IMG/VR virus record: IMGVR_UViG_3300030390_001481
Span: 22,992 to 63,077 of that record
Length of the DNA: 40,086 bases
Reading direction: 5' to 3' (one strand)
DNA from: a virus
Shown: one piece after another, positions 3-20,266 of the stretch
How the letters are laid out: every line of letters starts with the position of its first letter
How positions within the stretch are numbered: the first letter of the stretch is position 1
Made by a program: the position numbers and the translations under genes
The notes under the pieces: model-generated
Told to the model about the DNA's origin: nothing
Seen by the model: the letters and a program-made list of their open reading frames with translations, nothing else
Database searches by the model: none

Positions 3-1103
3 TCGGGATCATCATATATAAATATAAAAAACACAACTAATAATATTAGAATTGGATCGAGTCAATCAGTTTTAGTTGAAACCGATGCGACTAAAAATAC
101 TATATTAGGAAAACAAGCGGGACAAGCAATAACTGAAGCAAGTGAAAATGTTGTTGTAGGTTTTAATGCATCAGCAACATCAACGGTTCAAACTAAAAAT
201 GTTATAATTGGTGCAAACGCTATGTCAGATGGTTACGGAGGATCAGATGTAGCTGTGGGGTCAGAAGCTCTACAATATGCAGGTAATCCAACATCTTCAC
301 CAGCAACAAATACTGCAACAGGAAGAGTGGCTATAGGTGTAAATGCTTTAGAAGGAACATCATCTGCAAGACATATAGCTATTAACGTTGTTGCGATAGG
401 ATCTGGAGCTGGACAATATTCTTCAAGTAACGAAGCAGGAGGTGGAATTTTTATTGGACAAAAAGCGGGAAATCATAGCGTTAATAATCAAACGAAACAA
501 ACAGAAGAACAGATAGCAATTGGTGTAAGCGCAATGGAACACTATACAAGTTCTTCTATTGCAATTGGGCCTTACGCCATGAGAGATGTTACGGCTGGAA
601 CATCAGTAATATTAGGAGCGGGGCATATAGCTATAGGAAAAAATGCTATGGGTAGCGGAACTGGTAATCCTGAAGTTTCTGGAAGCTACAATATTGCTAT
701 TGGTGAGGCATCACAAGATGGGGTTACAAATGTAGTTGCTGACAATATAGCTGTAGGAAGGTCTACGGCAACAAAAGGAACAGGTTCTATTGCAATTGGA
801 GCCACTGCTACTGCGGGTGCAACAGCAGGAACTTCTACTGGTAACATAGCTATTGGTCATCAATCAAACGCTATTGGAGTTATAGAAAATATTGCTATAG
901 GTAAAGGCGCAAACGCTTCTACATTTGCTGGATCTGTCTGCATTGGAGCTTTAGCTACATCAACTGACGCAAATCAATTCGTAGTTGGATCAAGTTCTGT
1001 GGCGGTAGGAGCAACAGTAACAGAAACTATAGCGGCTTCAGACACAACATGGTTAGTAAAAATTAATGGGAATGAGTATAAAATTCCTATGTTAGCAATA
1101 TAA
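3..1103 (+). CDS. Tail fibre with YadA-head-like repeats (5' end cut off by window)
   Basis: The frame is open from base 3 to the TAA at 1103, so the true start lies left of the window; the first in-frame ATG at 222 is internal. The roughly 366 visible residues are dominated by short repeats of the form (N/S/H)IAIGxxA, for example NIAIGEAS, SIAIGATA and NIAIGKGA. This is the pattern of the left-handed beta-roll of trimeric autotransporter heads (YadA/Hep_Hag). Spacing between repeats varies, with Gly/Ala/Ser/Thr-rich loops. The tail (VKINGNEYKIPMLAI) has no intramolecular chaperone peptidase motif that I can see. In a phage, such a trimeric fibrous protein next to head and tail genes is best explained as a receptor-binding fibre. 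The fold assignment is strong from the repeats; the fibre role is inferred. Confidence 0.75.
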   Translation, partial: SGSSYINIKNTTNNIRIGSSQSVLVETDATKNTILGKQAGQAITEASENVVVGFNASATSTVQTKNVIIGANAMSDGYGGSDVAVGSEALQYAGNPTSSPATNTATGRVAIGVNALEGTSSARHIAINVVAIGSGAGQYSSSNEAGGGIFIGQKAGNHSVNNQTKQTEEQIAIGVSAMEHYTSSSIAIGPYAMRDVTAGTSVILGAGHIAIGKNAMGSGTGNPEVSGSYNIAIGEASQDGVTNVVADNIAVGRSTATKGTGSIAIGATATAGATAGTSTGNIAIGHQSNAIGVIENIAIGKGANASTFAGSVCIGALATSTDANQFVVGSSSVAVGATVTETIAASDTTWLVKINGNEYKIPMLAI

Positions 1104-2319: not shown

Positions 2320-4543
2320 TTTATTTAAGGTTTTAAAAGATTACATTCCTAAAAATGTTATTGCTAATAAAAATCGCGCGCGTACATGGCTGTATGGATA
2401 TAATGATAAATATGATTTAACAATAATTTCTAAAGATGGAACTATAGGTGAAATATATAACATAAGTGATGTTATTGTAGCGCTTCCTAAGGCACCAAAA
2501 GAATTTAAAAATTTTGAAGAAAAAAAAGAAGATCAATGCTGGAATCCTGTATTGATACCTAAACAATTAAAAAGAATACAATCAATATTTCAATGGCATG
2601 GAACTCCGGCTAATTTTAAAACAGAATGGGTAGATTATATAGAAACGGAATTTGATCGAAGAGAGCAAGGACATTGGTTTTTAAACAATGGTACGCCAAC
2701 CTATATAACAGGAACGCATTATATGTATTTACAATGGACTAAAATTGATGTAGGTAATCCAGATTTTAGAGAAGCTAATAGAATATTTTATATATTTTGG
2801 GAGGCTTGTAAGGCAGATAAAAGAAGTTTTGGAATGTGTTATTTAAAAATAAGAAGATCTGGGTTTTCTTTTATGAGTTCTTGTGAGGGCGTTAATCAAG
2901 CCACCATTACAAGAGATGCAAGAATAGGTATACTATCTAAAACTGGAGCAGATGCTAAAAAAATGTTTACAGATAAAGTTGTTCCTATATCTAATAATTA
3001 TCCTTTCTTTTTTAAACCAATACAAGACGGTATGGATAAACCTAAAACAGAATTAGCATACAGAGTACCTGCGTCTAAGATTACTAAAAAAAATATGTAT
3101 GATACTGGAAATGAAGAACTTGACGGCTTAGACACAACTATTGACTGGAAAAATACTTCTGATAATTCTTATGATGGAGAGAAGCTACAATATTTGTTAC
3201 ATGATGAAAGTGGAAAGTGGGAAAGACCAGAAAACATTTTAAATAACTGGAGGGTTACCAAAACTTGTTTAAGATTAGGTAGTAAAATAATTGGAAAATG
3301 CATGATGGGTTCAACATCTAATGCTTTAGACAAAGGAGGTGCAAATTTTAAAAAATTGTTTGAAGATTCAGACGCTTCAAAAAGAAATCAAAACGGACAA
3401 ACTAAGTCAGGTTTATATAATTTATTTATTCCAATGGAATGGAATTTTGAAGGATATATTGACAAGTATGGTATGCCTATATTAACTACTCCTGAAAAAC
3501 CTATTGTGGGAATAGATGGTGAAGATGTAAAAATAGGAGCAATTGATTATTGGGAAAACGAAGTAAATTCTTTAAGTTCTGACGCAGACGCATTAAATGA
3601 ATTTTACAGACAATTTCCAAGAACAGAATCTCATGCTTTTAGAGACGAATCAAAACAATCATTATTTAATTTAACAAAAATATATCAACAAATAGATTAC
3701 AATGATTCGTGCATACTAAGTCATCATGTAACGCGCGGATCTTTTCATTGGGAAAACGGAATAAAAGACAGTACAGTTATATTTAGCCCAAATAAAAGTG
3801 GAAGATTTTTAGTAACTTGGACTCCAGAAAAAAATTTACAAAACAAATATGTTACAAAGTTAGGAAAAAAGTTTCCTGGGAATGAACATATTGGATCTTT
3901 TGGTTGTGACTCGTATGATATTTCAGGAGTTGTTGTAGGTAAGGGGTCAAATGGAGCTTTACATGGATTAACAAAATTCAATATGGATAACGCTCCGTCA
4001 AATGAATTTTTTTTAGAATATGTAGCAAGACCTCAAACCGCAGAAATATTTTTTGAAGAAGTATTAATGGCGTGTATTTTTTATGGTATGCCCATATTGT
4101 GTGAGAATAACAAACCTCGTTTGTTGTATCATTTTAAAAACAGAGGATATAGAGGGTATTGCATGAATAGACCAGACAAAAGATTTAATAAATTATCTAA
4201 AACTGAAAAAGAATTAGGAGGTATACCTAACTCTTCAGAAGATGTAAAGCAATCTCATGCAGCGGCAATTGAATCTTACATAGAAAAACACATAGGTTTA
4301 GACTTTGAAGGAACTTACAGAGACGCTGAAGTTATGGGAACAATGTATTTTCAAAGAACATTAGAAGATTGGGCAAAGTTTGATATAAACAACAGAACAA
4401 GGTTTGATGCCAGTATTAGCACAGGATTAGCAATTATGGCTAATCAAAAACACCTGTATACTCCGACTGTAGAAAAATCAAAAATAAGTGTTAACTTTGC
4501 AAGATATAACAATAAAAGTTCCATAAGTCAAATAATAAGATAA
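2297..4543 (+). CDS. terL: Terminase large subunit (DNA packaging ATPase-nuclease)
   Basis: Packaging motor of 748 residues. The ATPase part shows a variant Walker A at residues 184-191 (K-I-R-R-S-G-F-S), which resembles the lambda gpA type with displaced lysine (K-x-x-R-x-G-Y-S) rather than GKS/T. Walker B is QYLLHDE at 298-304, with D303 and the catalytic E304, and the motif III-like MGST lies at 337-340. The C-terminal nuclease half holds a GCDSYD motif around 537-541 as a probable RNase H-like metal site and an acidic SSEDVKQSHA segment near the end. No in-frame ATG exists near the N-terminus, so a TTG at 2297 inside the upstream gene is the best start. The portal gene follows with no spacer. 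Confidence 0.9.
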   Translation: MQSQDQNNLFKVLKDYIPKNVIANKNRARTWLYGYNDKYDLTIISKDGTIGEIYNISDVIVALPKAPKEFKNFEEKKEDQCWNPVLIPKQLKRIQSIFQWHGTPANFKTEWVDYIETEFDRREQGHWFLNNGTPTYITGTHYMYLQWTKIDVGNPDFREANRIFYIFWEACKADKRSFGMCYLKIRRSGFSFMSSCEGVNQATITRDARIGILSKTGADAKKMFTDKVVPISNNYPFFFKPIQDGMDKPKTELAYRVPASKITKKNMYDTGNEELDGLDTTIDWKNTSDNSYDGEKLQYLLHDESGKWERPENILNNWRVTKTCLRLGSKIIGKCMMGSTSNALDKGGANFKKLFEDSDASKRNQNGQTKSGLYNLFIPMEWNFEGYIDKYGMPILTTPEKPIVGIDGEDVKIGAIDYWENEVNSLSSDADALNEFYRQFPRTESHAFRDESKQSLFNLTKIYQQIDYNDSCILSHHVTRGSFHWENGIKDSTVIFSPNKSGRFLVTWTPEKNLQNKYVTKLGKKFPGNEHIGSFGCDSYDISGVVVGKGSNGALHGLTKFNMDNAPSNEFFLEYVARPQTAEIFFEEVLMACIFYGMPILCENNKPRLLYHFKNRGYRGYCMNRPDKRFNKLSKTEKELGGIPNSSEDVKQSHAAAIESYIEKHIGLDFEGTYRDAEVMGTMYFQRTLEDWAKFDINNRTRFDASISTGLAIMANQKHLYTPTVEKSKISVNFARYNNKSSISQIIR

Positions 4544-6985: not shown

Positions 6986-7011
6986 GCTTAAAAAACTTAC
7001 TGGATAATTAC

Positions 7012-7019
7012 TAACTTTG
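7012..7019 (+). promoter_or_regulatory. Bacteroidota -7 box TAACTTTG
   Basis: A perfect match to TAnnTTTG in the 54-base spacer between portal and scaffold genes, 20 bases before the ATG at 7040. No good -33 TTG was seen at the usual spacing. It would start a transcript for scaffold and capsid genes with a leader of roughly 15 bases, useful for producing capsid in excess over portal. Confidence 0.5.
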
Positions 7020-7039
7020 TACAAATTAAATTAAATAAA

Positions 7040-8173
7040 ATGGATAATATTAAAGTAAGAGAAGTAACTAAGGAGACAAAGTCTACTCAGGAATTAGAAA
7101 AAGAACTTTTAGACAATCATGAAGAAAAGTTTGAAAAGACGGAAGATTCTAATGAAAAAGTAGATGTAGTAAAACAAGAAACATTACCAGAGACTCCAGA
7201 AGTGGATGAGGTAAAAAAAGAAGAAACTCCATCGTCAGAGTTAAATGACGAAGACGTTCTTTCATATATTAAAAATAGATATGACAAAGATATATCATCA
7301 GTAGATGATTTGTTTGCGCAAACAAAAGACAATGACGAATTACCTGAAGATGTTTCAGCATATCTTAATTTTAAAAAAGAGACCGGTCGAGGTATAGAAG
7401 ACTTTTATAAACTACAAAAGGATTACGATACCATGGATGACGAACTTCTTTTAGCTGATTATTACGGACAAACTGAAGAAGGTTTGGACGCTATTGATAT
7501 TCAAGATTTAATGGACGATAAGTTTTCATACGATGAAGACTTAGATGACGAAAGATCTGTGAAGAAAATAAAATTATCTAAAAAAAGAGAACTTGCGAAA
7601 GCAAAAAAGTATTTCAATGAACAAAAAGGAAAATATAAAATCCCTCTTGAGTCAAGTGGGGATGGGTTATCTGGCGAGGACAAAGAAACTTTAAATGCTT
7701 ATAAGAGTTACATAGAGGAGTCTACCAATGCGCAGGAAGTAAATAAAAAGAAGTACAACTGGTTCCTTAAGAAAACTGATGAGGTTTTTAATAATGAGTT
7801 CAAAGGTTTTGAGTTCAATTTAGGGGAGCAAAGTTTTACATACAAACCTGGAGATGCAGCTGAATTAAAAAATGTTCAATCTGATGTTAATAATTTTGTA
7901 AATAAATTTACTGACAAAGATGGACTAATAAAAGATGCTAAAGGTTATCATAAATCTTTAGCTATAGCTATGAATCCAGAAAAGTTTGCTCAATTTTTTT
8001 ATGACCAAGGAGTCTCTAATGCCGTAGATAATGTTACTAAAAAATCAAAGAACATTGATATGGATATTAGACAAGCTTCGCAAGGCGTTTCTAAAGATGG
8101 CTTAAAAATAAGAGCTGTTGGTGATACGAGCAGTGGAAGAGGACTCAAAATTAGAAGTATAAAAAAAGTATAA
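7040..8173 (+). CDS. Probable capsid scaffolding protein
   Basis: The 377-residue product lies between portal and major capsid protein, the usual place for a scaffold. It is highly charged. The first 100 residues are acidic and low-complexity (many Glu, Asp, Lys, Thr and Pro). The middle is acidic and helical. The last 40 residues are basic (GLKIRAVGDTSSGRGLKIRS, ending in KKV), as in scaffolds whose C-terminus contacts capsid protein. No protease motif was seen. The ATG has the A/T leader AAATTAAATTAAATAAA and its own promoter box. The role is inferred from position and composition; no family-specific motif was recognised. Confidence 0.6.
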   Translation: MDNIKVREVTKETKSTQELEKELLDNHEEKFEKTEDSNEKVDVVKQETLPETPEVDEVKKEETPSSELNDEDVLSYIKNRYDKDISSVDDLFAQTKDNDELPEDVSAYLNFKKETGRGIEDFYKLQKDYDTMDDELLLADYYGQTEEGLDAIDIQDLMDDKFSYDEDLDDERSVKKIKLSKKRELAKAKKYFNEQKGKYKIPLESSGDGLSGEDKETLNAYKSYIEESTNAQEVNKKKYNWFLKKTDEVFNNEFKGFEFNLGEQSFTYKPGDAAELKNVQSDVNNFVNKFTDKDGLIKDAKGYHKSLAIAMNPEKFAQFFYDQGVSNAVDNVTKKSKNIDMDIRQASQGVSKDGLKIRAVGDTSSGRGLKIRSIKKV

Positions 8174-8196
8174 ATATTAAAAAAAAATAATAAATT

Positions 8197-9660
8197 ATGT
8201 CAGTACAAGCAACCCCCGGATTTGATTTGCAGCCAAGCGCGCAACAACAAGTCCTTTCAACAAACTACATAACTAACTTTGATTTTTTAAATCAGTATCT
8301 ACCAGATACTTATGAAAAAGAATTTGAGCGTTATGGAAATAGAACGATAGCATCTTTCCTAAGAATGGTAGGTGCAGAAATGCCAACTAACTCAGATATG
8401 ATCAAGTGGGCAGAACAAGGAAGATTACATACAAAATACACTAATGTAACTTCAAATGTTGCTGCGATTAACTCGTTAGCTATATTAACAATTAATGATG
8501 TGTTTAATCCTTTACTTAATGCTGGAACAACTACTGCTGCATTAAGAGTAGGTCAAACTATCATGTTATCAGACAACACACCAGGTTCAACAAACACTAA
8601 CAAAGGTGTTATTGTAACTGGGCCTGGAGGAACTACTGCTGCAAACGTAGTTTTAACTGGTAGTCAAATAGAAGTAGCATACTACGAAGTAACTCAAGCA
8701 ATGGGTGCTGGTGTAGCTTGTACTCTATTTATATATGGATCTGAATTTGCAAAAGGTACTAATGGTATGCAAGGATCTTTAGAAGCAGACGATTTCTTCT
8801 TTCAAAATAAACCAATTATTTTAAAAGACAAGTATTCTGTATCTGGATCTGATATGGCACAAATCGGTTGGGTAGAAGTACAAACTGAAAATGGTGCTAA
8901 TGGTTACCTATGGTATCTAAAATCAGAGCATGAAACAAGATTACGTTTTGAAGATTACATGGAAACAGCAATGATTGAAGCTGTACCTGCGGCAAATACG
9001 TCTCAAGCACAGATTGCGCTTGTAACTGGAACGCCACAGACAAATGATGATCAAGCTGGTTCTGAAGGAATCTTTTATGTAGTAAACCAAAGAGGTAATG
9101 TTTGGGGAGGAGGAAATCCAACTACTTTAGCTGGTTTTGATTCTGTTATCCAAAGATTAGACAAGCAAGGTGCTATTGAAGAAAATGTAATTTTTGTAAA
9201 TAGAAACTTCTCGTTTGATATTGATGATATGTTAGCTGCACAAAATTCTTACGGAATGGGTGGAACTTCATATGGTCTATTTGATAACGATAAGGACATG
9301 GCTTTAAATTTAGGATTTACAGGATTTAGAAGAGGTTACGATTTCTATAAATCAGACTGGAAATACCTAAACGATCCTACAATGAGAGGAGGTTTGGTAG
9401 CTGGTCAAGTTAATGGACTTTTAGTTCCTGCTGGATCAACTTCTGTTTATGACCAAATCTTAGGTAAGAACGCAAAAAGACCATTCTTACATGTTAGATA
9501 CAGAGCTTCAGAAACTGAAGACAGACGTTACAAAACTTGGATTACTGGTTCTGCTGGTGGTGCAAGAACATCTGATCTTGATGCAATGGAAGTTAACTTC
9601 TTATCTGAAAGAGCAGTATGTACTTTAGGTGCAAACAATTTCTTCTTATTTCAGTCATAA
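8197..9660 (+). CDS. Major capsid protein
   Basis: The 487-residue product follows the scaffold gene and is followed by a strong terminator, as is typical of the most highly expressed virion gene. Compared with its neighbours the protein is moderately charged, with few lysine runs. The N-terminal region (NYITNFDFLNQYLPDTYEKE, then RTIASFLRMVGAEMPT and MIKWAEQGRLHTKY) is helical and could include the N-arm and E-loop region. Residues 105-185 form a Thr/Gly/Val-rich beta insertion ending in FIYGSEFAKG. The C-terminal part (FLHVRYRASETEDRRYKTWI, NFLSERAVCTLGANNFFLFQ) looks like an A-domain edge. The HK97 fold is expected for this class but not provable from sequence alone. Length is close to that of crAss-like phage capsid proteins. 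Confidence 0.8.
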   Translation: MSVQATPGFDLQPSAQQQVLSTNYITNFDFLNQYLPDTYEKEFERYGNRTIASFLRMVGAEMPTNSDMIKWAEQGRLHTKYTNVTSNVAAINSLAILTINDVFNPLLNAGTTTAALRVGQTIMLSDNTPGSTNTNKGVIVTGPGGTTAANVVLTGSQIEVAYYEVTQAMGAGVACTLFIYGSEFAKGTNGMQGSLEADDFFFQNKPIILKDKYSVSGSDMAQIGWVEVQTENGANGYLWYLKSEHETRLRFEDYMETAMIEAVPAANTSQAQIALVTGTPQTNDDQAGSEGIFYVVNQRGNVWGGGNPTTLAGFDSVIQRLDKQGAIEENVIFVNRNFSFDIDDMLAAQNSYGMGGTSYGLFDNDKDMALNLGFTGFRRGYDFYKSDWKYLNDPTMRGGLVAGQVNGLLVPAGSTSVYDQILGKNAKRPFLHVRYRASETEDRRYKTWITGSAGGARTSDLDAMEVNFLSERAVCTLGANNFFLFQS

Positions 9661-9680
9661 GTAGTAAGTAGTAAACTTTA

Positions 9681-9715
9681 GAAGGGGAGGAAATAAACCT
9701 CCTCCCCTTTTATTT
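9681..9715 (+). terminator. Intrinsic terminator after the capsid gene
   Basis: AAGGGGAGG at 9682-9690 pairs with CCTCCCCTT at 9701-9709, a G/C-rich stem of 9 bp (10 with an extra A-T pair), followed by a short T run. It lies 20 bases after the capsid stop, so it should insulate the capsid transcript. Confidence 0.85.
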
Positions 9716-9744
9716 AAATTATAATTAAATTAAAATAAAATACA

Positions 9745-10500
9745 ATGAATAAAATACAAAAGTATACGAATAAGTCGTATAGACTATTAAAAGGAATGTC
9801 TCCTTTATCTTACACAATCCCCTCAAGAAACAGTTCAAGATCTCCACTACTATGGTTTGACGAAGACAAAGGTATTAACAGACCTTTGCGTTATGCAAGA
9901 AATCAAAAAAGCCCATTTGAAGATGAGCAAGATGGTAATGCAATATTAGAACCTGTAGTTTTTGAAGATGGTATGTTAACAGTAGACAGGAACAATCAAG
10001 TTTTACAACAATTTTTACATCACCATCCACAAAACGGAATGGTCTTTGAGGAAATAAACAGAGAATATGATGCATCTAAAGAATTAGAAGATGCTCAAGT
10101 AGAGTTAAATGCACAAGTCTTAGCTATGGAATTACCATTAGACAAAATGATTACTGTATGTAGAGTATTCATAGGTAATGCAGTTGACAAAATGACAACT
10201 CCAGAGTTAAAAAGAGATTTATTAATGTACGCAAGAAACAGGCCAGAAGAGTTAATGGATATAATTAATGATCCTATGTTGGAGTTACAGGATACTATTA
10301 TGGGATTCTTTGAAGCTAATCTTTTAAAATTTGCCAAAGGCAGCAAAGAAGTTTGGTATAATATTAAATCTAATAAAAAGAAAATGTTAAACGTACCTCA
10401 CAATACTGATCCTTACTATATTATAGGAACTTACTTGCAGTCAGATGATGGTATAGAAATGTTTAAACTACTAAAGAACACCTTGAAAAAAGAAAAATAG
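9745..10500 (+). CDS. Probable head-associated protein, 251 aa
   Basis: Function not known. The product begins with a basic segment (MNKIQKYTNKSYRLLKGMSP), continues with PLLWFDEDKGINRPLRYARN and SPFEDEQDGNAILEPVVFED, then a QFLHHHPQNG motif. It ends in a helical half with RDLLMYARNRPEELMDII and a lysine-rich tail. There is no signal peptide or membrane segment. Placement directly after the capsid gene and before the connector genes suggests a capsid-decoration, vertex or assembly protein. It has no promoter box of its own and lies just past the capsid terminator, so it may depend on read-through or on an unrecognised promoter in the A/T-rich spacer. Confidence 0.55.
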   Translation: MNKIQKYTNKSYRLLKGMSPLSYTIPSRNSSRSPLLWFDEDKGINRPLRYARNQKSPFEDEQDGNAILEPVVFEDGMLTVDRNNQVLQQFLHHHPQNGMVFEEINREYDASKELEDAQVELNAQVLAMELPLDKMITVCRVFIGNAVDKMTTPELKRDLLMYARNRPEELMDIINDPMLELQDTIMGFFEANLLKFAKGSKEVWYNIKSNKKKMLNVPHNTDPYYIIGTYLQSDDGIEMFKLLKNTLKKEK

Positions 10501-10514
10501 ATTAACTATCTTTG
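10483..10514 (+). promoter_or_regulatory. Bacteroidota promoter, TTG-N21-TATCTTTG
   Basis: A -33-like TTG at 10483-10485 and a perfect -7 box TATCTTTG at 10507-10514 are separated by 21 bases, within the usual range. The box overlaps the spacer after the 251-residue gene and lies 33 bases before the ATG at 10548. It is the only box here with a recognisable -33 element. Confidence 0.6.
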
Positions 10515-10547
10515 TTCTTTATTAACCCATTAAAACCTTTTTATAAA

Positions 10548-10829
10548 ATGGAAAAATTTCTTTTAATCACAAATGCGCCTAAGTCAAGTCAGTTGATTAG
10601 CCTTAGTCGTTTAAAAACAGTAACAACAGCAGCAGGTGGTGCTGGAACTACTGTTGCATTAACATATTCAGACGCAACAGTTACTACGGTAACAACAATT
10701 GCTCAAACGGATTTTAACGTATATGACGCTATTATAGATGCGATGGAACAAGCATTAGCAACAAGCTGGCAAAAATCTCAGTTTCCAGTTGCATTGCCTT
10801 TAGCTCCAACAGGAATAGCAAACGCTTAA
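10548..10829 (+). CDS. Small virion protein, 93 aa
   Basis: I chose the ATG at 10548 (MEKFLLITNAPKSSQLISLS). A longer reading from a TTG at 10512 would begin inside the promoter -7 box and is unlikely. The product is rich in Thr, Ala and Val (TVTTAAGGAGTTVALTYSDA) with a helical second half (VYDAIIDAMEQALATSW). It resembles a small beta-rich decoration or connector protein but belongs to no family I recognise. It sits 4 bases upstream of the next gene and is likely co-transcribed with it from the promoter at 10483-10514. Confidence 0.6.
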   Translation: MEKFLLITNAPKSSQLISLSRLKTVTTAAGGAGTTVALTYSDATVTTVTTIAQTDFNVYDAIIDAMEQALATSWQKSQFPVALPLAPTGIANA

Positions 10830-10833
10830 GCTT

Positions 10834-11790
10834 ATGAGTGCTAAATATTTAGACATACCAATAAATACTATTGTAGAAACAGGGGTCGTTTCTCAAATAA
10901 TACCAGCAAGCGCTTCACTACCTATTGTAGCAGGAAATAATGCAGCTGCAGCTGTCTCAGGACAATTAAACGATGCTACGGCAGCTTTTACTACTGATGG
11001 AGTTCTTCCGGGCAATATATTATATAACGTTACTGATGGTACTCAAGTAACTATTACAGGAGTTACACAGCAACGATTATCTTTCACAGGAAATGTATTT
11101 CCAGGCGGAGGAGAATTATATGGTGTTCGTGTATTAAAACAGTTGGATGCTACAGGTACACTATTTGTAACTCGTGGAGTTGCAGTTGGAGATATTGTTA
11201 AGAATACAACTGCTGGAACAGCGACTACTGTAGCTTCTGTAATTAGCGACTCAAAATTAACATTAGTGCTTGATATATTTAACAGCGCAACTTTGTTTGA
11301 TGATAATTTTACTATTGAAGTTCCTGCTAATGTAGTTTATCAATTTGGTCAAAACTTTTTGACTACTATTTCTGTAGGTGATGTGTATGAAAATACAACT
11401 CAAAACTTTAGCGAAATAGTTACTTCAATTATTAGTAACACCAGATTTCAATGTGGCCCTTCAGTTGGAGCTATCGGAGACGCTTATAATGTTTTTGATT
11501 CAACAATAGCTTCAAGTTATTTAATTTTAATGGATCAAATAGTTTTAGTTGATAGAGTTGATTCAGAACGAACTAAAATTATTTTAAACACTAATGTTAC
11601 TCCTACGTTAACAATAGACCATTCAGACCAAGGAACAGGACGTGCGGTAGCTATAGCAATTCAAAATACTATGAAGAGAGGATTTATAGGTGTAAACCTA
11701 CCTGAACCTCCAGGGCCATCAGCTGCAAGAGTGCAGATGCCTATTTTTGAAGGTTCTGTTGTTACAGTAGAAAGCGTAACACTATCGTAA
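10834..11790 (+). CDS. Virion protein with three tandem beta domains
   Basis: In the 318-residue product, residues 46-100, 106-163 and 168-221 are three divergent copies of one pattern: a hydrophobic entry, V-x-x-G-(D/N)-x-(L/V)-x-N-x-T, then V-T-S-V-I-S-x-(T/S)-x-L, a variable loop and a closing strand such as LYGVRV, FTIEV or AYNVF. The conserved cores are VLPGNILYNVT, VAVGDIVKNTT and ISVGDVYENTT. Flanking N- and C-terminal parts are different, with an Ala/Thr-rich start and a C-terminal region containing SDQGTGRAVAIAIQNT. The same domain recurs in three downstream tail proteins. A head decoration or neck role is likely from position. A terminator follows. Confidence 0.65.
   Translation: MSAKYLDIPINTIVETGVVSQIIPASASLPIVAGNNAAAAVSGQLNDATAAFTTDGVLPGNILYNVTDGTQVTITGVTQQRLSFTGNVFPGGGELYGVRVLKQLDATGTLFVTRGVAVGDIVKNTTAGTATTVASVISDSKLTLVLDIFNSATLFDDNFTIEVPANVVYQFGQNFLTTISVGDVYENTTQNFSEIVTSIISNTRFQCGPSVGAIGDAYNVFDSTIASSYLILMDQIVLVDRVDSERTKIILNTNVTPTLTIDHSDQGTGRAVAIAIQNTMKRGFIGVNLPEPPGPSAARVQMPIFEGSVVTVESVTLS
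10969..11496 (+). repeat. Three tandem copies of a small beta domain (protein-level repeat)
   Basis: Copies at 10969-11133, 11149-11322 and 11335-11496 encode 54-58 residues each. They share the Gly-Asp/Asn turn, the N-x-T step and the V-x-S-V-x-S-x-x-x-L strand but differ strongly at the DNA level, so the duplication is old. Further single copies occur in the genes at 11877, 13754 and 19071. Confidence 0.6.
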
Positions 11791-11810
11791 GCTAATATTA
11801 CAATTTTAAG

Positions 11811-11843
11811 AGAGGCTACAAAAAAAGTAGCCTCTTTTTTTTT
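11811..11843 (+). terminator. Intrinsic terminator, perfect 9-bp stem
   Basis: AGAGGCTAC at 11811-11819 and GTAGCCTCT at 11827-11835 form a perfect stem around a 7-A loop, followed by eight T residues. It ends the transcript of the triple-beta-domain gene, and the next promoter box begins only three bases later. Confidence 0.9.
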
Positions 11844-11845
11844 GT

Positions 11846-11853
11846 TATATTTG
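11846..11853 (+). promoter_or_regulatory. Bacteroidota -7 box TATATTTG
   Basis: A perfect TAnnTTTG match immediately downstream of the terminator T run and 24 bases before the ATG at 11877. No -33 TTG at normal spacing; that position is occupied by the terminator loop and stem. It would drive the connector and nozzle genes. Confidence 0.55.
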
Positions 11854-11876
11854 TAAATAATTAAAAAGTATTTTCT

Positions 11877-12830
11877 ATGGCAATGATTAATGATGTTAGG
11901 AATACGGTATTAGCGATTATTAACAAGAATAATTACGGCTATTTATCTCCGCAAGATTTTAATCTGTACGCTCAACAAGCACAGATGGATCTTTTTGAAG
12001 ATTATTTTTATCAATACAATCAATGGATTAACAGAGAAAATGTTAGACAATCCGGAACCGGGTATGCTGATATTGTTAAAAGTTTAGAAGAAGTAATAGA
12101 TTTTTTTTCAGTAGAAGTTTTTTTAACAGGAGGTACTGCTAACACATGGACATTACCTGCTGATTATTATTTGGTAAATAAACTTTTTTATTACCCAAAA
12201 ATATTAACATTAGGAACAACAACAGCAGCAGGTGTAAATCAATTAATAGATTTAAACGCCAGTCCTATTTTTTCAAATGGATCTGTAACACCAACATATC
12301 CTGTAGCTGGAAGTATAGTGGTTAATACCTCTACGTTGTCTCAATCTTTTGTGACTACTGTTGCTAATGCTACAACTTTAAATTTAACGTCAGATATATT
12401 TACAACCTTAGGGGACACATATAGTATTTACAGCGCTAATAATATAACTGAAGTAGAAAGAGTTAGTCAAAAGAAAATATTTTATTTAACAAGTTCTACA
12501 TTAACATCTCCTACAAAACAATTTCCAGCTTATGTATTAGGAGGCAATACAGTAAGCGTTTATCCTACGTCTATACAGGCGTCAGGAGATATAAAAGCTC
12601 AATACATAAGATACCCTAAACCTCCTTCTTGGACTTATGTATCTTTATCATTAGGTGAGCCAACGTTTTATCAGTCATCATCAACGTTTCAAGACTTTGA
12701 ATTACCTTTGTCAGATGAGCCAGGGTTAATAGCAAAAATATGTCAGTATGTAGGTATAGAAATTAGAGAAAAAGATGTCTATAATTTTGGACAAACAGAA
12801 GAAGTAAGTAACAACCAAATACAAACATAA
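11877..12830 (+). CDS. Tail ring / head-tail adaptor protein 1
   Basis: The 317-residue product has an N-terminal helical part (residues 1-75: VRNTVLAIINKNNYGYLSPQ, then YAQQAQMDLFEDYFYQYN). A beta-rich middle follows, and the C-terminus contains SGDIKAQYIRYPKPPSW and FELPLSDEPGLIAKICQYVG. The helical start plus the RYPKxPxW strand region resembles the adaptor/ring proteins that join portal to nozzle in podoviruses (T7 gp11 role, crAss-like ring proteins). Residues 130-185 are an inserted copy of the beta domain (AGSIVVNTSTL, FVTTVANATTLNL, GDTYSIY). It ends one base before the next gene starts. Domain insertion aside, the assignment is by pattern and position. Confidence 0.65.
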   Translation: MAMINDVRNTVLAIINKNNYGYLSPQDFNLYAQQAQMDLFEDYFYQYNQWINRENVRQSGTGYADIVKSLEEVIDFFSVEVFLTGGTANTWTLPADYYLVNKLFYYPKILTLGTTTAAGVNQLIDLNASPIFSNGSVTPTYPVAGSIVVNTSTLSQSFVTTVANATTLNLTSDIFTTLGDTYSIYSANNITEVERVSQKKIFYLTSSTLTSPTKQFPAYVLGGNTVSVYPTSIQASGDIKAQYIRYPKPPSWTYVSLSLGEPTFYQSSSTFQDFELPLSDEPGLIAKICQYVGIEIREKDVYNFGQTEEVSNNQIQT

Positions 12831-12831
12831 C

Positions 12832-13752
12832 ATGGCGTATATTACTGATTATTTATATTACGAAAACAATGGCGCAAGCCCAAATGATGAAAACTGGGGT
12901 TCATATCAGTATGTTTCTTTAGAAGACATTGTATCTAATTTTATGTTAATGTATCAAGGTAATAATGAGATACTTAACAACATAGAAAGGTATCAAGTTA
13001 TATTTCATGCAAAGAGAGGTATACAGGAATTAAATTATGACGCCATGAAGGTTATAAAAATTCTTCAGTTGACCGTAGATTCTCAAATAAGATTTGTATT
13101 ACCTCAAGATTATGTTAATTATGTAAGAATTTCTTTATTTGAAAATAACACTTTATTTCCATTGGTAGAAAATATTCAGACTATGTGGAGTGGAGCTTAT
13201 TTGCAAGACAATCAAGCAAATATATTGTTTGATATAGCAGGTAATGTTTTAAAACCTGAAAATTCAAAAGTAGATTTAGCAAGAATAGCAGGTGGTATGC
13301 AAACATTGTATTTAGGGCCAGGGCCATATAATAATACAATGGGATATTGTTGTGATGGAGATTGGTATTTTCAATACGGTATAGGCGCACAATTTGGCTT
13401 AAACACAGAAACAGCAAATGTTAATCCAACATTTACTATAAACAGAGAAACAGGAGTAATATATTTTAGTTCTGGAATGTCAGGAAAATCAGTTGTATTA
13501 GAATATGTATCTGATGGTATGGAAAATGGAGACGATTCAAAAATAAGCGTAAATAAAATGTTTGAAGAATTTATATATGCTTATATTAGATTTTCATTAT
13601 TAAACAGTAAGTTTGGAGTGCAAGAATATATAGTTAGTAGAGCCAGAAAAGATAAATCTTCTTTATTAAGAAATGCTAAAATAAGATTAAGTAACATTCA
13701 TCCAAGTAGGCTTTTAATGAACTTAAGAGGCCAAGACAAATGGATAAAGTAA
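12832..13752 (+). CDS. Tail ring / head-tail adaptor protein 2
   Basis: The 306-residue product contains IFHAKRGIQELNYDAMKVIK, LTVDSQIRFVLPQDYVNYVR and a C-terminal segment KMFEEFIYAYIRFSLLN with a basic end (SRARKDKSSLLRNAKIRLSN). The arrangement 'helical, then LPxDYVNYVRIS strand pair, then helical' is typical of the second ring/adaptor component in Bacteroidota podoviruses, including crAss-like phages. It is placed between ring protein 1 and the nozzle, and only one base separates it from the nozzle gene, consistent with co-assembly of the neck. No insertion domain was found in it. Confidence 0.65.
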   Translation: MAYITDYLYYENNGASPNDENWGSYQYVSLEDIVSNFMLMYQGNNEILNNIERYQVIFHAKRGIQELNYDAMKVIKILQLTVDSQIRFVLPQDYVNYVRISLFENNTLFPLVENIQTMWSGAYLQDNQANILFDIAGNVLKPENSKVDLARIAGGMQTLYLGPGPYNNTMGYCCDGDWYFQYGIGAQFGLNTETANVNPTFTINRETGVIYFSSGMSGKSVVLEYVSDGMENGDDSKISVNKMFEEFIYAYIRFSLLNSKFGVQEYIVSRARKDKSSLLRNAKIRLSNIHPSRLLMNLRGQDKWIK

Positions 13753-13753
13753 T

Positions 13754-16700
13754 ATGGCAGATATTAACACAAATTTTATAGCGGGTAAAATGAATAAAAG
13801 CGTTGATGAACGCTTAATGCCTCCCGGAGAATATGTAGACGCTTTAAATGTAAGACTTGGATCAACTGAAACTACAGAGATAGGAGCTGTAGAAAACTCA
13901 AAAGGAAACACCCAAATTACAAATATTCTTTACAAAAATGAAAGAATGGTTAACGCTATTTGCATAGGTGCATATGCAGATGGTATAAATCAAAATATGT
14001 ATTGGTTTCTTCATGATCCACTAAACGGAAACTCACTGTCAGGAAAAGTAGATATGATTCTTTCTTATAATGCGTCTACAAATGCTACTAAATATATAGT
14101 TATATCTGAAAATGTTTTAAATTTTAATTCTTTATATTTAATTACAGGAGTAAATTTAATAGGAGATTTGTTATTTTTTACAGACAATTTTAACCCTCCA
14201 AGATCAGTTAATATAAACAGAGACTATGGCTATCCAACAACTACAGATGGTTTTGTAGAAGAAGATATAAGTTTAATAGTAAAACCGCCAGGATTTGGTC
14301 AATACACAAATAATTTAGTTTTACCTCCTCAAACAGAATTTATATTACCAGCTCCTAAATTAGCTTTATTTCAAACACCTTCTCAAGAAGAGAATTATAT
14401 AAAAGATAAATTTTTATGTTTTGCTTATCGTTTTAAATATTTAGATGGTCAATATAGTGCTACTTCTTTGTATACAACTCCCGCTTTTGAACCAAGTGAA
14501 TTTTCATTAGATTATGATACTTTAACTAATGCTGGGATGGAAAATAAATTTAATACTATTGAAATAACATTTAGCACAGGCCCAAAAAACGTAATAGGTA
14601 TAGATCTTCTATATAAAGAGTCAGGAAAGAGTACAATATTTTTAATAGAAAAATATAATAAATCAGAAGAAGGTTGGGCAGATGATTCTTTTAGAAGTAT
14701 TAATTTTGGAAAAAGAAAAGTATATACTTTACTTGGAGAAGATGAATTACTAAGAACATTTGATAATGTACCCTTAGTTGCTCAAGCACAAACAGTAATG
14801 GGTAACAGGGTTATGTTTGGTAATTATATAGATGGACGTGATATGGTAGACGCAGACGGACTACCTGTAGCAGTTGATTACACTGTTGGAGTGCAAACAT
14901 TTAACGATGAATATGTTGTGTTAAAAAACCCTACAAGAATTGCTGGCTCACAAAATTGGAATATTAGTGCAACCCAGTTTCAATCTACCTTAGGCTTTAA
15001 TACGTTTTATGCAAACGAAACACAATTAGGAGGTAATGTTTATAACACATCTGACACTATAATTATAGGAACGTCATTTAGTTGGGAAATACAAATAAGA
15101 ACAACTGGAACCGAATCTATAACTCAGAATGTACCTAACTTTCCAACAGCAGGTCAATATAGTTCTTCAACAGCTTTTGAGCCTATTTTTATAAATTTTG
15201 AATTTACAACACAAAACAGTTATAATTCTATAAACACAATGTTAAATAGCTCAGAGTTTTCTGACGCAGTAGGTGTTACAAATTTTCAGCCAATAACAAA
15301 TTCTAACAATGGGAACACTTTAACAGATAGATTTAATTCAGTTATTATACCTCCAGGCCCTAATAATCAAGGTAAAACCTCAAATGGTGCAACGTTTATT
15401 CAAACAGAACACAGTTTAACAGGTATAACTTCGTCAACAATAAGTGAAGGATGGGGGTTAGTAGTAACTGGCGATACATTTGAATTAAAAGTACCGGCAG
15501 TAGAGTATACATTTACAGATCTTACTACAAATTTAGTAAGTAGATATTATGAATACTTTCAAACTGTAAGCAACGGTATAACTGGAACTTTAGATACATT
15601 ACCAAATCGATTAAGTTTACATAGTAACAGAGACTATAGTGTTGGAATAATATATATGGATGAGTATGGAAGATCTTCTACAGTTTTAACTAATACAGAC
15701 GACACAGTTCATATACCTACAAGCGGAGCTGGATTTGTAAACAGATTACAAGTTTCTATAAGTAATCCTCCTCCAGTATGGGCTACAAGATATAAGTTTG
15801 CTATAAAGCCTTCAGCTACAACATATGACACTATATATATTACAACTTACACAAGAGATTTTTTTGATCCCGCTTTATTTTGGTTTAGGTTAATAGGACA
15901 AGATCAGGCATTGGTTTCCGCTGGAGACACCTTGATCGTAAAGATGGAAAACTTTTTTGTTTTTCCAAGTTTAGTAACTCTTGAAGTATTAGAGGTGGAG
16001 GTTAAGGGCAGGGGAGAGATTGATGGTGTACTTAATAATTTAGGTAATAGTTTGCCAGGATTATATTTTTCTGCAAAACCATCTGGATTTAATCCATCAA
16101 ATAATACTGAAATATACGCTTATAACACAGTTTCAGTAAAACAAAATAAAGCTAATTGTGGGACAAACCCAGAGGCAGACCAACAAGCAGTATACCCGGT
16201 TCATTCTAATGCAACGGGCAGTGGAACTCAAATAAACTACCAAATAAAACAAGGCTCTGTAATACAGTTTGACATGAAAATTACAAGAAGTCCTTACAAT
16301 GGAGGTTTAAACCCAGGAGATCCAGATGATAATAAATCAGTAGATTGGGCGTGGAAACAAGAATATATATCTAACAGTTTGTATAATAATTTTTACGATT
16401 GGTTTGTAGGAGATCAAATTGCAAGTTTTATACAAGGAACGAAAGATGCAGGACAACTACAACTGACAGGTCATTTTGAACCTACTATAGCAAATTTTCT
16501 TCAAGATTGTAACATTCCTGGAGGTTGTAATAATTATTCTGTTCAGTTTTTAGAAGATTCCGCAGGTCTTCTTTCTTTAGTTTTAAGTTCAGGAGTAAAA
16601 AGAGGAGGCCCTGGTTTTGATAAGCGTCCTGCAAGAGCAAGTGTAGAAATAACTGTAATTATTAATGGTGCAGTTTTAGTATTAGAAACAGATCCAGCTC

Positions 16701-18880
16701 CAGCCGATCCTAATATATACTATGAGGGTTCTCAAAACTTTAACATTGGTTTTGATTCTACTCAAAATAAAACAATACATTTTACAAACAAAACAAATCA
16801 AAATTTATTATTAAACCTACCGGGTATTTGTGATGTAACTTTTGGTAATTGTTACGGATTTGGAAATGGAGTAGAAAGTTATAAAATATTAGATGAAGCT
16901 GCAAAACCTCAATTTTCAATAGGAGAAAGAGCAAGCGCAGTATCAGTTCTTCCTTACAAACAAGCTAATAGAGTTGCTTCTATTACCTATAGCGGTGTTT
17001 ATAATGGTGAAACAAATTTAAATAATAGTAATGAATTTAATTTAGCTTTAGCAAATTTTAGAGATTTTGAAATAGTATATGGCCCTATTATGAAACTTTA
17101 TTCTCGTGAAACAGATGTATTAATTTTACAAGAAGATAAAATTTCTTATGTATTGGCTGGTAAAAATTTATTGTCTGATGCCGCAGGAGGAGGTGCAATT
17201 ACCTCAATACCAGAGGTTTTAGGAACACAAATAGCTCGTATAGAAGAATACGGAATAAGTTTTAACCCAGAAAGTTTTGCAAGTTTTGGAAGGAATATAT
17301 ATTTTACAGACACTAAAAGAAATAGTGTTATAAAATTATCTTCAGGAGCAAAAGGAGATGCTATAGAGATTGTTTCTGATTTAGGAATGAGATCTTATTT
17401 TAGAGATAATTTTTCTGCTCAAATTGATACTCAAAAGTTAGGGGGCTACGATCCTTACATGGATGAGTATGTTTTAAACAACAATCCAAGTTCTGTTGTT
17501 CAAGGCGCTGAAAATTTAGAATGTGGAACTTTGGTTTCACAAACAAATGCTATTGATTTGTATGAGGTTACTGTAAACATAGGAGCTATTATTGGTATTG
17601 TAACATTAGATTATTTATTAGCAGCTGGTTCTCCAGATATACAAATAACATATACTTGGAATGGAGTTAATACTAATAATGTAACTGATGGTACTACGAC
17701 AAGCGCTGGTACTGGAGTTTTAACAGACACTACCGCAAACTTTTCAAATATTGATATAGGAAATGGTGTGTTTAATACCTCTTCAGGTACTTCTCCTACT
17801 CCAAGAACAACTGTTTTAGCTGTTATTAGTGCAACAGAGCTATCACTGGCTAATCCAAATTTTGTTTTAAATAGTGGAGACGGTTATTTAATAACAAAAA
17901 GAGTTACTCCTGTAATAACTACTGTCTTAGTTAGCGGATCTAACCCTGGAGGATCTATAAGTCTTAATAAATCTAATTTGTACCCTACAACAATAAATTT
18001 AAAAGTAGCAAGAGCTTTGTCAACAAGTACTGATCCTTTGTCTTATCAAATAACTCCTAATTGTGCTATTGCTCCTGCTGGATCAATAACTCAAATAGTA
18101 TTGACTTCTCCGCAACAATCAGGAAAAGAATTACATTATGAATATCAATGGAATGATGGTACTTTTTTTAGTCCTGTTGAATCAAATTTAGTAAGAGCAA
18201 AATCTAACCCATTACAAAGTGTTTCAGCTTTTGATCAAACCAATGGATTTCAATCTCAAGGAATGATTCCTTATCTAAATGCAAGTCATTTAATAAGGTC
18301 AAATAAATTAAATACTGATGATTTAATTTTTAATGAAAACGAAAACAAATTTTATATTTTTGCTCAAGGTAATCCTATGTATGCACCAGGAGCAACAGGA
18401 ACATCAAATGACTTTAATGTAACTAAGTTAGCAGGGAAATCACCTCGTACTCCTATCCAAAATCCCCAAACAGGTCTTTTTCAAGCTACAAGACTTAATT
18501 ACGGAATGGGAACTGCTTTGCCAAACTTAATTCTTGTAACAGACTTAAGGGATTATTCATATGTAAAAATGGGTTATGATGCAACTTCTTCATCAGCAGC
18601 TTGTAATGTTGTTTTAAATTGCAATCCAGTATTAACTACTGCAAGAGAAACATCAAGTTATAATGCTTGTCAATTAAGCGCTATAAACATTACTCGTTAT
18701 ACAAATGCTATATCAGCAGCAAATATTACTATTGGAGATATTTTATATCAAAACAGCCCTTGCAATTCTAATACAACTAATTGGACTGATGCAGGTTTTT
18801 ATAAAATTTCAGGAAGTACAAATGGAAGAGTTCTTAGAGTTGGGAACGATGGTTTAATAATTCAAATAACAAATTGTTAA
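13754..18880 (+). CDS. Tail nozzle/muzzle-type protein (1708 aa)
   Basis: This very long tail protein begins with NFIAGKMNKSVDERLMPPGE followed by YVDALNVRLGS and IGAVENSKGN, the pattern that opens nozzle proteins (T7 gp12, P22 gp10 and crAss-like muzzle role). A second conserved block lies at about residues 1165-1245: EEYGISFNPESFASFGRNIY, FTDTKRNSVIKLS, GMRSYFRDNF and GGYDPYMDEYVLN. Most of the chain is Asn/Thr/Gly-rich beta structure, as in a propeller with insertions. Residues 1310-1385 are another copy of the shared beta domain. The C-terminus (AGFYKIS, RVLRVGNDGLIIQITNC) ends in cysteine. It would form the distal tube through which DNA leaves. T7 gp12 is under half this length, so large insertions are likely surface-exposed. 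Confidence 0.72.
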   Translation: MADINTNFIAGKMNKSVDERLMPPGEYVDALNVRLGSTETTEIGAVENSKGNTQITNILYKNERMVNAICIGAYADGINQNMYWFLHDPLNGNSLSGKVDMILSYNASTNATKYIVISENVLNFNSLYLITGVNLIGDLLFFTDNFNPPRSVNINRDYGYPTTTDGFVEEDISLIVKPPGFGQYTNNLVLPPQTEFILPAPKLALFQTPSQEENYIKDKFLCFAYRFKYLDGQYSATSLYTTPAFEPSEFSLDYDTLTNAGMENKFNTIEITFSTGPKNVIGIDLLYKESGKSTIFLIEKYNKSEEGWADDSFRSINFGKRKVYTLLGEDELLRTFDNVPLVAQAQTVMGNRVMFGNYIDGRDMVDADGLPVAVDYTVGVQTFNDEYVVLKNPTRIAGSQNWNISATQFQSTLGFNTFYANETQLGGNVYNTSDTIIIGTSFSWEIQIRTTGTESITQNVPNFPTAGQYSSSTAFEPIFINFEFTTQNSYNSINTMLNSSEFSDAVGVTNFQPITNSNNGNTLTDRFNSVIIPPGPNNQGKTSNGATFIQTEHSLTGITSSTISEGWGLVVTGDTFELKVPAVEYTFTDLTTNLVSRYYEYFQTVSNGITGTLDTLPNRLSLHSNRDYSVGIIYMDEYGRSSTVLTNTDDTVHIPTSGAGFVNRLQVSISNPPPVWATRYKFAIKPSATTYDTIYITTYTRDFFDPALFWFRLIGQDQALVSAGDTLIVKMENFFVFPSLVTLEVLEVEVKGRGEIDGVLNNLGNSLPGLYFSAKPSGFNPSNNTEIYAYNTVSVKQNKANCGTNPEADQQAVYPVHSNATGSGTQINYQIKQGSVIQFDMKITRSPYNGGLNPGDPDDNKSVDWAWKQEYISNSLYNNFYDWFVGDQIASFIQGTKDAGQLQLTGHFEPTIANFLQDCNIPGGCNNYSVQFLEDSAGLLSLVLSSGVKRGGPGFDKRPARASVEITVIINGAVLVLETDPAPADPNIYYEGSQNFNIGFDSTQNKTIHFTNKTNQNLLLNLPGICDVTFGNCYGFGNGVESYKILDEAAKPQFSIGERASAVSVLPYKQANRVASITYSGVYNGETNLNNSNEFNLALANFRDFEIVYGPIMKLYSRETDVLILQEDKISYVLAGKNLLSDAAGGGAITSIPEVLGTQIARIEEYGISFNPESFASFGRNIYFTDTKRNSVIKLSSGAKGDAIEIVSDLGMRSYFRDNFSAQIDTQKLGGYDPYMDEYVLNNNPSSVVQGAENLECGTLVSQTNAIDLYEVTVNIGAIIGIVTLDYLLAAGSPDIQITYTWNGVNTNNVTDGTTTSAGTGVLTDTTANFSNIDIGNGVFNTSSGTSPTPRTTVLAVISATELSLANPNFVLNSGDGYLITKRVTPVITTVLVSGSNPGGSISLNKSNLYPTTINLKVARALSTSTDPLSYQITPNCAIAPAGSITQIVLTSPQQSGKELHYEYQWNDGTFFSPVESNLVRAKSNPLQSVSAFDQTNGFQSQGMIPYLNASHLIRSNKLNTDDLIFNENENKFYIFAQGNPMYAPGATGTSNDFNVTKLAGKSPRTPIQNPQTGLFQATRLNYGMGTALPNLILVTDLRDYSYVKMGYDATSSSAACNVVLNCNPVLTTARETSSYNACQLSAINITRYTNAISAANITIGDILYQNSPCNSNTTNWTDAGFYKISGSTNGRVLRVGNDGLIIQITNC

Positions 18881-18881
18881 T

Positions 18882-19058
18882 ATGGCAGTAGCAATAAATA
18901 GATATTTTGACGGCAATAACTTTTGTCAAGCCACAGCTATATTTACAGATGATAAACTTAGTATATTTGCCCCTACAGGGTATTATTCTTTTGATGGATA
19001 TGTAAGATATTGGGATTCGGTTACACAAATTTTAGACAGCTGTTCTGTATGCCCTTAA
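18882..19058 (+). CDS. Small Cys-tailed tail protein, 58 aa
   Basis: A short gene starting one base after the nozzle stop (TAATATG) and ending 12 bases before the next gene. The product, MAVAINRYFDGNNFCQATAI followed by FTDDKLSIFAPTGYYSFDGY and VRYWDS, ends in LDSCSVCP. The GYYSFDGYVR...C-x-x-C ending echoes the nozzle C-terminus (GFYKISGSTNGRVLRVG...C), suggesting it is a detached relative of that terminal domain. From memory, similar modules often end large tail proteins in related phages. Two to three cysteines could bind metal or cross-link. Function unknown; a nozzle-tip role is inferred. Confidence 0.65.
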   Translation: MAVAINRYFDGNNFCQATAIFTDDKLSIFAPTGYYSFDGYVRYWDSVTQILDSCSVCP

Positions 19059-19070
19059 ATAATTAATATT

Positions 19071-19844
19071 ATGTCAACAAACGAAACATTATCATATAGC
19101 GATGGGGCTAAAGGCTGGCCTTCTTTTTATTCATTCTTGCCAGAATTTATGATGGGAATGAATAGTTTTTTTTATACGTTTAAAAACGGAAACTTGTACA
19201 GACATAATACAAATGAAAAAAGAAATGTATATTATGATGTAGAGTATAATTCTAAAATTACAGGAGTATTTAACACTTCTCCTTTAGAGATTAAATTGTT
19301 TAAAACAATGTCTTTTGAAAGTGATGCATCTTGGAAAGTTACATCTTTAGTTACCGATCTAAGTACAGGAAGTATGTTAAGTACTTTTTTTGAGCAAAAA
19401 GAAGGGGAATGGTTTTCTTTTATAAGACAAAATGCTTCTACTATTAATTTTAAATTGAGATCGGCTCATGGAATTGGAGACATACTTACTGATCCAACTT
19501 TAGCGACAGGTACAAATTTATATTTATATAGTTTTGCTAATCCTATAGGGAATATGATAGATGAGGGAGACTCTGTTTTTAAAACTTCAAACCCAGGGAC
19601 AGACGCACCAATTAAAACAGGTGTGGTTTCAAGCGTCAATAACACATTAAACACTGTTACTGTAGATATAACAGGATTTATTCAATCCGTAGTAGCAGAT
19701 GACTATATACTATATTACAAAAATGTTGTAGCTGAATCGCAAGGAGCAAGAGGATATTTTATGCAATTTACTTTAGAAAATGACAACCTAACTCCAGTTG
19801 AGTTATTTTCCGTAGGGAGTAGCGTGATGAAAAGTTATCCATAG
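19071..19844 (+). CDS. Tail structural protein with GWPSFYSF motif
   Basis: The 257-residue product has a distinctive N-terminus: SYSDGAKGWPSFYSFLPEFM, MGMNSFFYTFKNGNLYRHN and RNVYYDVEYNSKITGVFN. From memory, this block recurs next to, or fused with, nozzle proteins of Bacteroidota podoviruses, so it is probably part of the tail hub or tip. The middle is beta-rich (WKVTSLVTDL, GEWFSFIRQN). Residues 154-217 are a copy of the shared beta domain (EGDSVFKTSNPG, TGVVSSVNNTLNTVTVDI, DDYILYYKN). No enzymatic motif was seen. It ends just before the leaderless-type promoter of the internal-core cassette. Confidence 0.6.
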   Translation: MSTNETLSYSDGAKGWPSFYSFLPEFMMGMNSFFYTFKNGNLYRHNTNEKRNVYYDVEYNSKITGVFNTSPLEIKLFKTMSFESDASWKVTSLVTDLSTGSMLSTFFEQKEGEWFSFIRQNASTINFKLRSAHGIGDILTDPTLATGTNLYLYSFANPIGNMIDEGDSVFKTSNPGTDAPIKTGVVSSVNNTLNTVTVDITGFIQSVVADDYILYYKNVVAESQGARGYFMQFTLENDNLTPVELFSVGSSVMKSYP

Positions 19845-19864: not shown

Positions 19865-20266
19865 ATGTCATTTAATATACTACCTCTTACTTCTAAAGAC
19901 TATGATAATTTTTTAGTAGGGTGGTGGAAAGAGTGGAGATGGACTCCGCCAAAAAAAGATTTTTTACCTGAAACGGGTTTTATGGTTTATTATAATGACA
20001 AACCAATTTGTGCAGGGTATATGTATATTACAAATTCTAATGTAGTTTTATTAGAATGGATTATATCTGATTTTAAATTTAAAAATAAAAAAATCAGAAA
20101 AGAAGCGCTACTGATGTTAATACAATTTATTACTTCTTTAGCCGCAGGAACAGGTAAAAAGTATGTTTATTCTATACTAAAAAGTAAAAGTTTAGTAGAT
20201 TTATATTCAGAAATTGGCTATGTAAAAGGTGATGATAACGGAAAAGAAATGATTAAAATATTATAA
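19865..20266 (+). CDS. GNAT-fold-like virion assembly protein (T7 gp13 position)
   Basis: The 133-residue product follows GNAT topology: strands at GFMVYYNDKPICAGYMYITN and VVLLEWIISD, a helix at EALLMLIQFITSLA, then YVYSILKSKSLVDLYSEIGY and a final strand (KEMIKIL). The acetyl-CoA pyrophosphate loop (Q/R-x-x-G-x-G/A) is not recognisable; the equivalent region reads FKNKKIRKEA. This suggests a structural rather than catalytic protein. T7 gp13, 138 residues, belongs to a family placed with the GNAT fold and sits directly before gp14-gp15-gp16. This gene has the same size and the same place before three core-like genes. An active acetyltransferase remains possible. Confidence 0.6.
   Translation: MSFNILPLTSKDYDNFLVGWWKEWRWTPPKKDFLPETGFMVYYNDKPICAGYMYITNSNVVLLEWIISDFKFKNKKIRKEALLMLIQFITSLAAGTGKKYVYSILKSKSLVDLYSEIGYVKGDDNGKEMIKIL

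Follow-up and report, generated by a model that had tools for sequence, protein, structure and literature searches.

A small portable domain, by model a beta-barrel, that probably nests within itself in virion proteins of a crAss-like phage

Introduction

In a 40,086-base stretch of viral DNA (hereafter the window; bases 22992-63077 of a 63,077-base virus record), one short sequence pattern seems to recur in several virion proteins, which raises the question of whether the segments concerned are copies of a single domain and, if so, how they came to lie in otherwise unrelated chains. A preliminary description of the sequence had counted six copies, three in a 318-residue protein (10969-11496) and one each in a ring protein (12264-12431), the nozzle (about 17680-17915) and a 257-residue tail protein (19530-19721), and had proposed a portable surface module that spreads by recombination along one particle.

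By family matches, the head and tail genes of the window belong to a crAss-like podovirus. The 1708-residue protein matches phrog_14478 (3e-200), the virion families phrog_14543 and phrog_13977 are matched by the 317- and 306-residue proteins, respectively, and the Pfam family crAss_MUZ_C is present in the 257-residue protein. Gene order is similar in Flavobacterium phage elemo, Maribacter phage Panino and MW202828, among other relatives. Judged by gene position and family, the 317-residue protein is of the ring type; compared with the rings of phicrAss001, its best match, gp34, was not significant, and no particular ring was assigned.

Results

Five of the six segments are related copies by profile comparison

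The features on which the analysis turns are as follows.

10834..11790, + strand: 318-residue capsid-region protein, a small core with three modules after its first strand (leave-out HMM, three domains)
10927..11142, + strand: module A1, probably the innermost, residues about 32-103 (HMM; pLDDT about 80-93)
11143..11319, + strand: main part of module A2, residues about 104-162 (HMM)
11320..11508, + strand: main part of module A3, residues about 163-225 (HMM)
12210..12446, + strand: module in the ring-type tail protein (ORF 11877-12830), residues 112-190 (held-out HMM; empty sites in relatives)
17666..17905, + strand: module in the muzzle (nozzle) protein (ORF 13754-18880), residues about 1305-1384 (held-out HMM)
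L003:11181-11996 of the 63-kb record, outside the window: 266-residue protein with two further copies (held-out HMM)

We gathered relatives of the ring protein from IMG/VR and made a profile from the ring copies alone. This profile matched the 318-residue protein (2e-6) and the 266-residue protein (2e-11), and reached just 0.07 for the muzzle and 0.11 for the 257-residue protein. After iteration, HMMs were rebuilt leaving out one host family each time and were searched against the virus's own ORFs together with 2247 shuffled or reversed decoys. The held-out E values were 1.2e-15 for the 318-residue protein, 4e-11 for the ring protein, 4.9e-11 for the muzzle and 1e-16 for the 266-residue protein, compared with about 4e-3 to 2e-2 for the best decoys; since the copies had been collected by iteration across all families, these leave-out tests are tests of scoring rather than of discovery. 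When the single domains of the 318-residue protein were scored with the capsid family held out, the values were 8e-7, 2e-10 and 0.11, so the third copy leans more on its similarity to A2 and on the structural model. By hhalign the true copies matched one another with 91-98% probability, and pairwise shuffling tests linked most of the A1, A2, A3, ring and muzzle copies, and the 257-residue segment weakly. Five of the six proposed segments are genuine related copies at the places given for them, namely the three in the 318-residue protein, the one in the ring-type protein and the one in the muzzle. The proposed check that profiles should find one another's copies above background thus came out in favor of these three proteins and against the 257-residue segment.

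The module is ~65-70 residues long, with the consensus GTTT...KLxDxxxxF...VGDxVxNTTDxxxAxVTxVxSxTxLxL...GExYxI; it canonically starts with an SGTTT strand, and glycine, hydrophobic and turn residues make up most of its conserved positions. Its copies had no sequence match in Pfam, PHROG or the PDB, and neither an Ig family nor BACON was among the matches when 22 copies were compared with Pfam (E<=0.1). No copy was found in the tested phicrAss001 structural proteins, in which the best E value of 0.02 lies inside the decoy range.

Insertion sites are empty in relatives

In the ring protein, the module sits between the motifs LPxDYYxxNKxxY and ExERVSxxKI, and this site is empty in L055, elemo, MW202828 and Panino. 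The muzzle module of the window's clade lies inside a conserved beta-rich region, at a site that is empty in the other aligned muzzles; a second muzzle site carries a module in L046/L047 and L034/L035 and is empty in the window. Relatives of the capsid-region protein share the core and differ in having 0, 1, 2 or 3 modules at a single loop, and a module-free and a one-module relative from the same contig align as two pieces that flank the module (larger piece, E 5e-12). On the basis of these alignments, module-free relatives establish true insertion at the ring, muzzle and capsid-region sites. The earlier proposal of insertion into unrelated chains therefore stands for the ring and muzzle proteins and falls for the 257-residue protein, whose segment is present in all orthologs. 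In the 266-residue protein, the two copies are probably nested, and the C-terminal part that follows them resembles that of fibre-type phrog_12296 proteins.

We also considered a mobile element acting at the DNA level. Around the ring, muzzle and L119 copies, the three that were examined, no consistent direct or inverted repeats were found, and for these copies the candidate was set aside.

The modules are modelled as barrels and are probably nested

In the structural model of the 318-residue protein, the modules form three confident barrels (pLDDT about 80-93), and the core is poorly modelled. The structural neighbours of the model include EF-Tu/eEF1A, Uba1, V1/F1-ATPase, riboflavin synthase and phage tail-tip barrels, at Z scores of 6-7, all below 8, which may mean just a common arrangement. 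As modelled, the module resembles a RIFT-type six-stranded beta-barrel at the level of a common fold only. No Ig fold was among the structural matches listed for the model, a list that need not include every similar family.

Both sequence spacing and the model suggest that the three barrels do not simply follow one another. Directly upstream of A2 and A3 there is no SGTTT strand, and three SGTTT-type starts seem to be stacked before A1 (in L006, SSGTSELV-IGTTASAGI-ASGTATSDSTNKL). In hand-picked examples, 15-18 residues separate the core strand from the first KLxD when there is one module or a tandem pair, 23-25 when two modules are nested and 32-33 when three are. Structural alignments to single barrels span residues 32..103 for A1, 22..162 for A2 (66-68 residues aligned) and 11..225 for A3 (61-71 residues aligned); spans of this kind with just 61-71 residues aligned are expected if A1 lies in A2 and A2 in A3. 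From the spacing and the model, we infer that the modules are probably nested in this order, like Russian dolls, with the first strand of A2 probably at 10897-10926 (residues 22-31) and that of A3 probably at 10864-10893 (residues 11-20). Elsewhere, the copies in L076/L130 and L073 look nested, and those in L079, L121 and L023 are in tandem.

Separately, a second inserted element, rich in glycine and in GTGY...GD, was seen in these capsid-region proteins (L052:8589-9794, L037:338-1588, L029:7840-9105 and L012 [9111-9911]). It lies mostly at the same loop as the module and looks like another portable module.

The segment of the 257-residue protein is a resident look-alike

19467..19718, + strand: resident look-alike barrel in the 257-residue muzzle C-terminal protein (ORF 19071-19844), residues 133-216

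None of the leave-out HMMs detected the segment of the 257-residue protein at E<1, and hhalign comparisons with the single module families gave probabilities of 0.3-53%. The segment is present in all orthologs seen, including those of Flavobacterium and Maribacter phages, and is thus not an insertion. In the ortholog L119, a canonical module lies just upstream of an intact native segment of this type; when L119 and its orthologs were aligned jointly with module copies, the native segment was put onto the module, and this alignment was kept out of the modelling. The protein family aligns to residues 1049-1289 of gp44, the muzzle protein of phicrAss001 (PMC10172136), and in phage elemo the counterpart and the muzzle are one chain, which together identify the 257-residue protein as the muzzle C-terminus. 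Since this part is a separate gene in the window and continuous with the muzzle in elemo, this lineage has seen either a split or a fusion of the muzzle.

The model of this protein was weak overall, with pLDDT about 70-90 for residues 131-216, where six strands follow the same order as in the module and the structural neighbours are partly of the same kinds. These similarities in the model would be compatible with a distant common fold origin, which is possible. We nevertheless rejected the segment as a sixth copy, given its lack of HMM detection, its low hhalign probabilities, its presence in all orthologs, its coexistence with a true module in L119 and its alignment to gp44.

The gene directly after that of the muzzle C-terminus (19865-20266) encodes a 133-residue protein that is GNAT acetyltransferase-like in appearance. 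Its counterpart at the same place in MW202828 is annotated as an acetyltransferase subunit; a Pfam scan of the window's protein gave no match.

The module occurs in many other proteins

Viral contigs and prokaryote genomes were scanned with a strict back-translated DNA pattern, which favors consensus-like copies. The pattern was found in at least 120 stretches of viral contigs versus 2 in 257 Gb of prokaryote genomes, and 80 viral loci from the scan held 105 modules in 93 ORFs. Including the crAss-like set, the host proteins fell into 21 groups by their sequence outside the module, a rough figure in which some groups are surely interrelated. Hosts with a family match were the tail sheath protein L121 (two tandem copies), fibre-type phrog_12296 proteins, the virion protein phrog_2941 and phrog_38559 proteins, the last with the module at four different sites; the L079/L102 proteins look, by eye only, like tail-tube proteins. 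The suggestion that other phage virion proteins be searched was therefore fruitful, with many further hosts, sheath and fibre-type proteins among them. Wherever a role has been assigned to a host, it is that of a virion or cell-surface protein, such named hosts being a minority.

Both prokaryote matches were confirmed by HMM. One is a prepilin-like protein with several copies and the other a propeller protein with S-layer, cadherin and Ig domains; such copies were found in 4 of 143 sampled genomes of the class of the prepilin-like carrier, that carrier's own genome counted. In cultured phages, tblastn with the consensus module against 50,697 records returned nothing at E 1e-3, a search run with the low-complexity filter on and thus not evidence of absence, and another module copy gave only weak matches under the same filter.

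Two further sets of carriers were noted. L182, L190, L191 and L192 are bacterial proteins of about 1000-1150 residues with a prepilin-like N-terminus and several modules of a GGxDN variant, and look like one surface protein family. In one contig, L063, three large proteins (5681-10792, 3939-5726 and 12025-13761, - strand) contain six module copies; the second and third of these had no match in PHROGs or Pfam.

Copies group by insertion site

A tree of 63 copies was built from 71 columns, and with so few columns its deep forks are poorly supported. Copies grouped by site, with support of 100/97 for the ring, 99/95 for A1, 99/97 for A3 and 100/99 for the muzzle copies of the window and L042. Copies from the same genome did not group, except for the two of the sheath protein L121 (95/89), in which tandem duplication is likely. 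The copies within the genome studied here are very divergent from each other, and pairs across host families were, in this sample, at most 75% identical in amino-acid and 74% in nucleotide sequence. The grouping by site and these identities make the transfers into the sites look old, and the insertions inherited.

Discussion

We propose that the repeated pattern marks a portable, six-stranded barrel of ~65-70 residues that is inserted in loops, anciently inherited, and serves as an accessory surface domain, a reading to which we assign a probability of roughly 0.6. The family is real and portable, and it probably nests in itself. In the proposed course of events, the barrel would be inserted, in frame, into a loop exposed on the host protein, presumably projecting outward from it. 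The host fold would remain unbroken because the first and last strands of the module are expected to lie next to each other. The loop that follows the first strand of one module could serve as an insertion site in turn and so give rise to nested copies, and each insertion would be old and then inherited with its host protein. Once in place, the domain may add weak contacts with host or environmental surfaces, as has been proposed for phage Ig-like domains.

Of the description of the segments as a portable surface module, portability is well founded, given the empty sites, the several sites within one family and the many hosts; the surface part agrees with the sorts of proteins that carry the module, namely virion, pilin-like and S-layer proteins. 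Where roles have been assigned, the hosts belong to the virion or the cell surface; the module is missing from close relatives, and its sequence has been maintained in hosts that are unrelated to each other. A role as an accessory surface or adhesion domain appears most likely in our analysis. The main rival, which we regard as unlikely although it deserves serious attention, is a stabilising or spacer role in which modules bind no ligand but pack on neighbours and thereby strengthen or space the subunits. There is precedent in domain2 of the major tail protein of phage YSD1, which is an inserted beta domain and folds onto the subunit next to it (PMC8718954), and copies in the repeated shell and tail subunits as well as the muzzle would agree with such a role, as would conserved glycine, hydrophobic and turn residues suited to a fold core. 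However, close relatives assemble without the module, and it is kept in hosts whose neighbours are unrelated, bacterial surface proteins among them, which speaks against a single, specific role in packing.

A second alternative, that one copy was recently duplicated by recombination within the genome into other virion genes, is very improbable. Several copies do share one genome, and the L121 sheath copies group together, but at the ring, A1, A3 and muzzle sites each copy groups with its counterparts in other phages, and those of this genome are very divergent; neither recent copying within the genome nor spread along one particle is therefore supported. Weakest of all, and hardly credible, is convergence of small threonine- and valine-rich beta sheets on GDxVxN...Y with no common origin, which may apply to the 257-residue segment, similar in strand order without detectable sequence homology, but which is refuted at the level of sequence for the ring, muzzle, 318-residue and 266-residue copies by held-out detection at 4e-11 to 1e-16 and by identities of up to 75% between modules of unrelated hosts, far beyond composition-matched decoys.

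The accessory surface domain proposed here can be compared with three known systems. Phage Ig-like domains, for which weak contacts with carbohydrates or cell surfaces have been proposed and are unverified (Fraser et al. 2006, as cited in PMC8718954), are, in the account given there, likewise small all-beta additions to many virion proteins of unrelated phages and dispensable in close relatives. Unlike them, the module is by model a RIFT-like barrel rather than an Ig sandwich and has no Pfam Ig match, and whereas the Ig domains of tail tubes are C-terminal (PMC8718954), it is mostly an internal loop insertion, with nesting. RIFT-related (cradle-loop barrel) domains occur in many phage tail and neck proteins (PMC10684548), and the module would be the same kind of small six-stranded barrel; that group is a fold class, however, whereas the module is one loop-inserting sequence family, and no sequence link between them was found. 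The BACON repeats of crAss-like phages are also small repeated domains of tail-associated proteins, have spread by transfer and duplication and are suspected to bind carbohydrate (PMC6949934). They form head-to-tail arrays, in contrast to module copies, which are single, tandem or nested in many structural proteins and have no Pfam BACON match.

More tentatively, and at somewhat less than even odds, an unnamed barrel family may have colonised loops of most outer virion protein classes (capsid region, tail barrel, muzzle, sheath, fibres and probably tube) across unrelated environmental phages, together with some bacterial pilin-like and S-layer proteins, repeatedly entering its own first loop, as a general surface domain parallel to and independent of Ig-like domains.

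If the proposed reading is right, the Ig-like domains are not the only promiscuous surface domains of environmental phages. The module is common in viral metagenomes and, as no Pfam or PHROG model matches it, hides in structural proteins annotated as hypothetical, where it can mislead annotation by linking unrelated proteins. Its nested copies would document, as a natural record, successive insertions at a single loop, and what the module does can be tested by comparing relatives that have it with relatives that lack it.
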